34,818 nt of DNA from assembly GCA_008373095.1 (NCBI GenBank), contig RQOP01000058.1, positions 1 through 34,818 of the forward strand, in the 5' to 3' direction. The translations under genes were made by a program, and so were the position numbers. The notes below the pieces were generated by a model. That model made no database searches and was not told where the DNA came from. It was given only the letters and a program-made list of their open reading frames with translations. Below are positions 18,824 through 22,438 of the stretch, piece by piece; the first letter of the stretch is position 1; each line of letters begins with the position of its first letter. The stretch is from SAR202 cluster bacterium. Its GTDB lineage: Bacteria; Chloroflexota; Dehalococcoidia; Lucifugimonadales; UBA826.

Positions 18824-18909
18824 TGTAAATTTTTAGGTGGATTCATATGGTATGGTGAACCGATAGTATGTCAACACTTTTGGATAACACTGGGGAGACA
18901 GGAGATTTT

Positions 18910-19290
18910 ATGAAGGAACGTTCTATAACCATTACCGCTGGTAATCTCACAATGAACGCTATTATGAACGAATCCGATACGGCTAATGAAATTTGGAATT
19001 CCTTGCCCATCTCGGGTTCGGCTAATGTTTGGGGTGATGAAATATATTTCGCTATTTCTGTTAAAACTGAGGAAGATCCTAATGCCTCAGATCTGGTTTC
19101 CTCCGGTGATCTTGCATATTGGCCTCCGGGTGATGCATTCTGCATTTTTTTCGGTAGGACTCCCGCTAGCACTGACGACCAACCCAGAGCCGCTAGCCCA
19201 GTGAACGTGTTTGGTCATATTGATGGTGATGAAAAACTTTTTAGGGGTGTGGCTGGGGGAACTCCTATCGAGATAGTTGCTAAAGAATAA
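18910..19290 (+). CDS. Cyclophilin-like fold protein (TM1367/DUF-type)
   Basis: ITAGNLTMNAIMNESDTANEIWNSLPISGSANVWGDEIYFAI...GDLAYWPPGDAFCIFFGRTP. Start at MKERS preceded by GGGGAGACAGGAG. Confidence 0.75.
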   Translation: MKERSITITAGNLTMNAIMNESDTANEIWNSLPISGSANVWGDEIYFAISVKTEEDPNASDLVSSGDLAYWPPGDAFCIFFGRTPASTDDQPRAASPVNVFGHIDGDEKLFRGVAGGTPIEIVAKE

Positions 19291-19302
19291 AAGGGATTAA
19301 AT

Positions 19303-19965
19303 ATGAGCTACACAGCGCTCCTACGACAGAAAGCCGATAGCCTTTGGGAAAAAGAATATTTGCACCCCTTCGTTCAGGGCATAGGTTCAGGAACTCTGGA
19401 ATTGGAAAAATTCCAGCATTACATGAAACAGGACTATTTGTTCCTTATTGAATTTTCCAAAGTTATATCGCTAGCTATTGCCAAATCTAAAAATCTCGAA
19501 GACATGGGATGGTTTTCCACATTATTGAACGAGACTTTGAACACAGAAATGGCTCTCCATGTAAGTTTTTGTAAAGATTTTGACATCGAAGAGAAAGACC
19601 TTTTGAACACTAAAATGTCCCCATCTACTCATTCCTACACACGTCACCTTTTGGAAATAGGATATTCTGGGTCAACTCCTGAAATAGCTACAGCGATCTT
19701 GCCTTGCTCATGGGGTTACTCTGAGATTGGTAAACGTCTTTTTGCCAATGGGCTCCCTTCGAATAATCCTCTCTATTCAAGATGGATAGAAATGTATAAC
19801 TCAGATGAATTTGAAGACTTGGCTCTCTGGATTCGTGGGTTTATAGATCGAGAAGTTCAAAATATGACGCCTAGCAGCCACGAAAACCTGGAAGACATTT
19901 TCTTTACCAGTACCAGGTACGAATATAAATTCTGGGACTCTGCATACAACCTCGAGACTTGGTAG
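19303..19965 (+). CDS. TenA/thiaminase II-family protein
   Basis: HPFVQGIGSGTLELEKFQHYMKQDYLFLIEFSKV, LPCSWGYSEIGKRL. Confidence 0.88.
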   Translation: MSYTALLRQKADSLWEKEYLHPFVQGIGSGTLELEKFQHYMKQDYLFLIEFSKVISLAIAKSKNLEDMGWFSTLLNETLNTEMALHVSFCKDFDIEEKDLLNTKMSPSTHSYTRHLLEIGYSGSTPEIATAILPCSWGYSEIGKRLFANGLPSNNPLYSRWIEMYNSDEFEDLALWIRGFIDREVQNMTPSSHENLEDIFFTSTRYEYKFWDSAYNLETW

Positions 19966-20350: not shown

Positions 20351-21096
20351 TTAGCGAAAAAGATCATTTTCTTTTGGTCTTAGAAGTGATTCATATTCAG
20401 AATTTTCTGGGTTAAACTCGCTACCCCTGATCACTACGACTGGTATATTCAAAGACTTTCCGGTAGCTAATTCCGATGCAGCTGCTAATTCATCGGCAAT
20501 GCAGATAGTGGTAACTTTCAACACCTGACCTACAGCATCAATCGTATCCTTGTAATCTATGAAAGGGCTCATACCTGCGCAGCCAATGGCGAAATTTACG
20601 TGACCGTCCCTCCAGGGGCGTCCAAACGTATCCGAAATGACAACCCCTAGCGATTCTACATTGGTGATGCGCTTAATATCGTTTACGATTTTTCTAGCTG
20701 AAGCGTCTGAATCTTTGGGTAGCAGAGCAACCTTAGTTTCACCTTCTACATTCGAGGAATCTATTCCTGCATTCGCATACTTTCCGTTATCAAAACACCG
20801 CGTTCAAAGTCAGTCCTCACAATTTCTGTAGACTGCTCCAATATCAACTGCACCAACCTAGGGTCTTTTCCAAGCTTGGCCGCGAGTTCTTCTGCCTCCG
20901 AGGTAGGTTCAATATCCAATAAATCCCGAACCATACCTTCAACTTTGGAGACAACTTTTTGGGTCACCACTATTACATCTCCAGACTGTATTCCTCCAGC
21001 TGAGGATAATGCCGCCTCAAAAATCATTTCAGAAAGATTATGCGAGGTGTTAAATTCAGGCATCCCACTTAAGCCGATGATTTCTATATTACCCAT
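20351..21096 (-). pseudogene. cofE: CofE-like coenzyme F420-0:L-glutamate ligase, disrupted by frameshifting deletion (or assembly error)
   Basis: N-terminal half (21096-20761) MGNIEIIGLSGMPEF...SGDVIVVTQKVVSKVEG...GVLITE, then stop. The other frame continues ANAGIDSSNVEGETKVALLPKDSDASARKIVNDI...VVISDTFGRPWRDGHVNFAIGCAGMSPFIDYKD... with no stop to 20351. Confidence 0.85.
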
Positions 21097-21188
21097 ACAT
21101 GACTATCCTATTAATTCTTAATGTTATACTCGCCGAACCATAATTTTGTTAGCTCTCTAACATTTTCCTATGCAGGAGGTATTTTCCT

Positions 21189-22064
21189 TTGACTTATCTA
21201 AGAAGTTTACTATTTGTGCCTGGTAACCAGCCAAACATGCTGGCCAAAGCCGCCTCATTCTCACCAGACGCTTTCGTGCCAGATATGGAAGATTCTGTAG
21301 CATGGGACGATAAATCACAAGCAAGGCAAGTCGTTGCTGACCATTTAGAAACGCTTGGGAATACAGGTATAAGAATCATACCAAGGATAAACTCCCTTGA
21401 TACCGGTCTTTGTGAAGAGGACTTGGCAGCCATCGTTGGACCACACATTTACGGCGTCTCTATAGGAAAAATTAATACAGCCCAAGATGTAAGTGTGATT
21501 TCAAAATGTATTGCCAATTTGGAATCTGAAAGAAAAATAACCAAAGGTTCTATTAAATTGGTGTTGTGGATAGAAACTGCCGTTGGTTTATTAAATGCTT
21601 ACGACATATTATCCTCAAATGATCGAATAATTGCCGCTGCCTTTGGTGCTGAAGATTTCACAAACGATATGGGAATCACGCGAAACGAAGATGATCGTGA
21701 AATACTTTTTCCGAGAAGCCAGGTAGCAATAGCGGCAAAGGCCGCGGGAGTCCTAGCATTAGACACACCATATTTCGGTTTTAGAGATCCAGAAAGTTTG
21801 AAAATAAACTCAGAATTATCTAAATCTGTCGGCTTCAAAGGAAAGTTTGCAATACACCCATTGCAGGTGGAAATAATTAACGAATGTTTCTCTCCTACAA
21901 AAAAGGAAATTGATCATGCGTTAGAAGTAATCCGAGTCTTTGAAGAAGCCGCTGCTAAAGGTAGAGGCTCCACATCTTTAGATGGTCAGGTTGTAGATGT
22001 TCCCGTAGTAAAAAGGGCTGAGGCCCTAATCTATCAGGCCAAGCAAATGGATATCGTCACTTGA
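21189..22064 (+). CDS. HpcH/HpaI aldolase / CitE-like CoA-ester lyase
   Basis: RSLLFVPGNQPNMLAKA, DAFVPDMEDSV, IGKINTAQDV, IETAVGLLNAYDI, FGAEDFTNDMG, FKGKFAIHPLQVEIIN. TTG start after AGGAGG. Confidence 0.88.
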   Translation: MTYLRSLLFVPGNQPNMLAKAASFSPDAFVPDMEDSVAWDDKSQARQVVADHLETLGNTGIRIIPRINSLDTGLCEEDLAAIVGPHIYGVSIGKINTAQDVSVISKCIANLESERKITKGSIKLVLWIETAVGLLNAYDILSSNDRIIAAAFGAEDFTNDMGITRNEDDREILFPRSQVAIAAKAAGVLALDTPYFGFRDPESLKINSELSKSVGFKGKFAIHPLQVEIINECFSPTKKEIDHALEVIRVFEEAAAKGRGSTSLDGQVVDVPVVKRAEALIYQAKQMDIVT

Positions 22065-22438
22065 TGGATAACAGTGACCAAATTGTTCTTAAAGGCATGA
22101 GTTTTTATGGTTACCACGGTGTTAATCCGGAAGAACGTTCCACCGGCCAGAAATTTATCGTTGACCTAAGAGTGAAATGTTCCTTAATAAAACCTTCCGA
22201 ATCAGACAAAGTGGAAGACACCGTGAACTACTCTGAACTATTCAGAATCGTCAAAACTGTTATAGAAGGAGAGCCACACAACTTACTGGAGAGCGTGGCA
22301 AAAAATATTTCAGATAAGATACTTCTGGATTATGATATCTATTCGGTTTCTGTAACAATTAAGAAGCCTGAGGTTCGTATAAACGAATCGAATTTGGATT
22401 ACGCTGCTGTTACATTAACTCGATATGGAAATAAATGA
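22061..22438 (+). CDS. folB: Dihydroneopterin aldolase
   Basis: DQIVLKGMSFYGYHGVNPEERSTGQKFIVDLRV, DTVNYSELFRIVKTVIEGEPHNLLESVA, VTIKKPEVRI. Confidence 0.92.
   Translation: MMDNSDQIVLKGMSFYGYHGVNPEERSTGQKFIVDLRVKCSLIKPSESDKVEDTVNYSELFRIVKTVIEGEPHNLLESVAKNISDKILLDYDIYSVSVTIKKPEVRINESNLDYAAVTLTRYGNK

Follow-up and report, generated by a model that had tools for sequence, protein, structure and literature searches.

A 16-nt deletion interrupts cofE in a SAR202 group II genome, in an order where cofE also occurs without cofD and cofH

The gene for the coenzyme F420-0:L-glutamate ligase (cofE) is interrupted in the genome of a SAR202 group II bacterium by a deletion of exactly 16 nt, which removes the first part of a conserved motif. 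Judged from the locus and its orthologues, this is probably a recent cofE null allele. SAR202 bacteria are abundant, uncultured and marine, and the oxidation of resistant organic matter is their proposed role. The analyzed stretch of 34,818 nt (the window) is the whole contig C58 of a MAG of 1.95 Mb and 104 contigs with 94% completeness and 4.3% contamination, whose nearest named relatives are marine SAR202/Dehalococcoidia MAGs, one of them labelled SAR202-II. Together with 59 relatives (7 congeners and 52 more distant genomes) it forms a sample of 60 genomes of the order, mainly MAGs with one per species. When the genome contigs were scanned for a conspecific copy of cofE only congeners and more distant genomes matched, and no viral contig matched in a DNA pattern search for a cofE copy. 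The features of the broken locus are the following:

20351..21096, minus strand: cofE, disrupted (PF01996 and TIGR01916 on both halves; collinear intact orthologues in congeners)
20761..21096, minus strand: 5' half, an ORF of 111 aa with about 105 CofE residues followed by SMRMQE (PF01996 positions 4-94, E 7.4e-22)
20351..20779, minus strand: 3' half in the other frame, 142 aa, up to the native stop (PF01996 positions 102-218, E 2.3e-34)
between 20778 and 20777, minus strand: deletion junction, 16 nt missing (alignment of 8 congeneric loci; single-T microhomology)
20755..20768, no strand assigned: inverted repeat AGGAAT-CT-ATTCCT, judged unrelated

The original prediction, made from the DNA alone, had named the gene cofE, and the family models bear this out, as PF01996 and TIGR01916 match complementary parts in the two halves. 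In TIGR01916 the 5' half covers positions 1-96 and the 3' half positions 104-244; each half by itself scores under the cut-off, and jointly they cover the full family model. NF009810 (FbiB) is matched as well. What the gene lacks is the single uninterrupted reading frame of a CofE. Frame 1 of 21096-20351 on the minus strand reads MGNIEII...RTDFERGVLITE-SMRMQE and then meets, six codons on, the predicted premature TAG at 20763-20761. The remainder, read in a different frame from 20779 as YANAGIDSSNVEG...LLRPKENDLFR, is open as predicted until the TAA at 20353-20351. No ATG, GTG or TTG start is present in the 3' half before the ATG at 20572, and a start there leaves about 73 residues.

Between the GAA of ITE and the GCG of ANAG the window has 5 nt (AGTAT, 20781-20777) compared to 21 nt in the congeners, and the remainder of cofE aligns with the 7 congener orthologues without any indel. 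The gene is thus exactly 16 nt short, in agreement with the predicted loss of about 16 nt and not with a homopolymer slip. The strand reads GAAAGTA/TGCG, with the slash at the junction, where the single-T microhomology leaves the position of the deletion ambiguous by 1 nt; the junction lies outside any homopolymer or tandem repeat. The lesion indeed strikes a conserved motif, T-x-H-G-F-[IV]-C-[AI]-N-[AS]-G-[VI]-D, which is found with small variations in all 33 relatives translated and whose first seven positions are gone in the window. The lost segment, T/S-I-H-G-F-I-C, aligns with A-K-F-G-N-V-C, directly before V-N-A-G-I-D of the Archaeoglobus fulgidus CofE. A perfect palindrome next to the deletion had also been named as a possible cause of slippage. 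The sequence is present at 20755-20768; strictly, however, 2 nt separate its arms, which makes it an inverted repeat, and neither of the two nearest relatives has it in perfect form. Slippage driven by this repeat is rejected, because the window contains 49 inverted repeats of this kind (arms of 6, spacer 0-4), about one every 700 nt, and because the named one lies outside the gap; the microhomology at the junction is just 1 nt.

The alignment of orthologous loci, which the original prediction had proposed as a check, showed an uninterrupted frame in all seven congeners. In addition, cofE was found in 47 of the 52 more distant relatives, and each match consists of one frame without stops. The 16 nt are retained by every congener, so that among the genomes compared the disabling deletion is private to the window's genome. 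Collinearity of the contig extends over 33 kb with G003, its nearest congener (83.8% identity), and over 14.4 kb with G006 (82%), and in both comparisons the 16-nt gap is the sole unbalanced, frame-breaking indel inside a gene. The remaining indels are compensating pairs or groups, are multiples of three, or lie at gene ends, in mechanically extended ORF starts or between genes; for small indels close to ORF ends this classing is our own reading of the indel list. The contig is therefore otherwise clean, and a generally poor, frameshift-rich assembly was rejected for it. As far as sequence can tell, this argues against generally poor data without proving that the deletion is present in cells. 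A second gene of the genus may also be freshly broken: in G006 (C84:9656-10567) a luciferase-family gene carries one in-frame TAA.

With G006 as outgroup, the changes on the own branch of the window's cofE amount to 8 nonsynonymous and 31 synonymous, and those on the sister branch to 16 and 25, a contrast that is not significant (p about 0.09, small counts). Neither half carries a further stop or indel. Selection has thus not been relaxed in the way expected of a pseudogene after its inactivation, and both halves appear to be still under purifying selection; under simple assumptions, neutral drift would be confined to the end of the terminal branch, to its last 10-25% or so at most. With purifying selection on both halves, either the lesion is very recent or real cells lack it. 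The same signal is equally expected if the living cells hold an intact cofE.

For the window's genome we favor a very young null allele that would have arisen through a single 16-nt deletion. The deletion would shrink a space of seven codons to 5 nt and shift the remainder of the gene out of frame. The transcript would then yield a fragment of 111 residues, made up of CofE residues 1-105 and six foreign ones; the 3' half would be without a usable start, and no frame change could restore the lost residues. Cells bearing the allele would produce FO and F420-0 via CofG/H and CofC/D but add no gamma-glutamyl tail and make no F420-n. We infer both the presence of the allele in living cells and this biochemical consequence from the assembled sequence.

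Searches for a second cofE and for F420-related enzymes, also proposed by the original prediction, were run on the assembly. No second PF01996/cofE gene was found across the 1.95-Mb assembly (94% complete, 104 contigs), and an intact copy could still lie in the unassembled part of the genome. The other genes of the pathway are kept: cofC and cofD are adjacent on contig C49, and cofH and a second cofG/H-like gene are located on C32. There are 46 luciferase-family matches in this genome. All three proteins scanned had an F420-dependent family as best match but scored below the curated cut-offs, and use of F420 as cofactor by luciferase-family proteins is not proven by these matches. A folC gene that is likewise broken was considered and dismissed, as its shortened match lies where a contig of 3,055 bases ends. 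Three mycobacterial oxidoreductases bind F420 with two glutamates six- to ten-fold weaker than the long-tailed form, and binding of FO to them was not measurable (PMC5623714).

The original prediction had itself named an assembly or sequencing artefact as the alternative. An artefact of assembly, amplification or consensus calling is a tangible possibility, toward which we lean less. The cells would then carry an intact cofE, and the gap would come from a chimeric or mis-resolved stretch or from a rare variant that entered the consensus. The uninterrupted cofE in every congener, the undiminished purifying selection on both halves and the intact state of the remaining F420 genes and many luciferase-family genes all favor it. 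A CofE-made tail has moreover been reported on F420 from all producers investigated (review, PMC8498797), so that a loss of CofE should be costly. However, 16 nt missing without flanking repeats are atypical of a sequencing error, and there is no second frame-breaking indel over 33 kb of flanking DNA. The loss of 16 nt with a microhomology of 1 nt, away from any homopolymer or tandem repeat, fits better to an ordinary deletion than to the typical sequencing error of 1 nt.

The original prediction had suggested that, if the lesion is real, polyglutamylation of F420 is being lost or has been replaced in the lineage. An established loss of cofE in the lineage is not supported, and we consider this suggestion very improbable. 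It could draw on the absence of any further PF01996 protein in the window's genome and on G024 and G027, two genomes in which cofD and cofH were found and cofE was not, which mean that producers lacking cofE may exist in the order. Against this, cofE is intact in all seven congeners and present in 47 of 52 further relatives, selection is not relaxed, cofC, cofD, cofG/H and the 46 luciferase-family matches are retained, and no candidate replacement ligase was found in a search that did not extend to CofF-type alternatives. That the split gene is functional, by programmed frameshifting or as two complementing polypeptides, is scarcely credible and was rejected. Both halves are clean and conserved, but the motif residues are physically absent, so that a normal CofE cannot result from any change of frame; the 3' half lacks an ATG, GTG or TTG start until 20572, and such an arrangement is seen in no relative examined.

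In the order as a whole, cofE and cofD occur together in 36 of 60 genomes (the broken cofE of the window counted), and 19 of 60 carry cofE without cofD. In the same 19 genomes no cofH match exceeds the family cut-off, and cofE is intact in all of them (example loci are L024, L021, L101, L102, and L103). Weaker, sub-cut-off cofH matches in four of the 19 are probably other radical-SAM enzymes. Completeness is at least 90% in 14 of the 19; G048 consists of one contig, G025 and G054 of two contigs each. A local search of 2.0 of the 2.69 Mb of G048 with cofC, cofD, cofG, and cofH of the window's genome found none of them, and the same search found cofE and matched control loci from distant relatives strongly. 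All 19 cofD-less genomes have npdG (F420:NADP oxidoreductase model, TIGR01915) over the cut-off. Presence and absence of cofD are scattered over the CofE tree and need 10 changes, of which well-supported branches force at least 5, and therefore the combination of cofE without cofD probably arose repeatedly. In the parts of the open-licence literature consulted, no evident description of cofE and npdG without cofD and cofH was found. The inverse situation is seen in G027 (L094) and G024 (L095, L096), where cofH and cofD occur with an adjacent cofC match and no PF01996 gene is detectable; these genomes are possibly incomplete, or possibly F420 producers without CofE.

The genes next to cofE in the window are these:

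21189..22064, plus strand: CitE-like lyase (HpcH/HpaI), divergent neighbor of cofE (PF03328; NCBIfam citE below cut-off)
22061..22438, plus strand: folB, dihydroneopterin aldolase (PF02152 1.1e-32; TIGR00525 99 bits, cut-off 72.15)

The CitE-like gene adjoining cofE is conserved in several families. Divergent linkage of cofE and folB, often with the CitE-like gene in between, is found in the whole genus and at 16 non-congeneric loci from many families, 10 in cofD-less and 6 in cofD-bearing genomes (window 20351-22438; L010, L020, L028, L030, L110, L117, and others). Further along the window, at 18868-19965, a cyclophilin-like gene (PF04126) is followed by tenA, and members of this pair also occur near cofE in other families (neighborhood clusters 4 and 6).

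Among known systems, the intact orthologues resemble CofE of A. fulgidus (PDB 2G9I, 2PHN, 7ULD) most directly. A congeneric orthologue scores 252.3 bits with TIGR01916 (cut-off 180.65) and aligns over the full length with the A. fulgidus protein (2e-41), whereas the window's gene is split and misses the segment equivalent to A-K-F-G-N-V-C. By this homology the SAR202 orthologues are predicted to carry out the GTP-dependent gamma-glutamylation of F420-0. The ligase domain of FbiB, the actinobacterial fusion of CofE and a nitroreductase, is likewise homologous, as the NF009810 match indicates; in contrast to FbiB, the congeneric SAR202 proteins are stand-alone, of about 253 aa, and without the C-terminal nitroreductase domain. 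The third system is FolC2 of chlamydiae (CT611), a CofE homologue that takes the place of FolC. Its gene belongs to the CofE family, lies near folate genes in hosts without F420 synthesis and complements an E. coli folC mutant (PMC1971073). As with FolC2, the SAR202 cofE adjoins a folate gene, folB, and persists without cofD and cofH, in 10 cofD-less genomes with both features combined. Unlike the hosts of FolC2, SAR202 genomes keep folC (54 of 60) and carry npdG.

Taken at its face, the distribution suggests that CofE is uncoupled from de novo F420 synthesis in part of the order, through salvage or through another substrate; about a third of the sampled species would have lost cofD and cofH or never possessed them. 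We put this forward tentatively and would not yet bet on it, because family models can miss divergent enzymes and because a TIGR01915 match is no proof of F420 use. With salvage, F420 or a late precursor may be taken up from other organisms, CofE extending the tail and NpdG being kept. CofE of SAR202 may instead act on another substrate such as folate, for which the chlamydial precedent speaks. The retained folC and the far better fit to the F420 model (252 bits, compared to 77 bits on the folate-ligase model TIGR04132) speak against it, and CofE as the sole folate ligase of the cofD-less genomes was rejected since folC is present in most. These genomes may also hold divergent, unrecognized genes for F420 synthesis.

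If reads do not confirm the lesion, it matters little, as it concerns one gene recently broken in a single MAG; if it is real, this would be an F420 producer without its tailing enzyme. The order-wide pattern is more important than the lesion, as a tailing enzyme and NpdG persist in many species without the known genes for making F420. It suggests either sharing of the cofactor in the ocean or an unrecognized substrate of CofE, and both can be tested. If the uncoupling is true, a cofE null allele in a species that makes F420 would be a natural experiment on which of the two roles of CofE counts.
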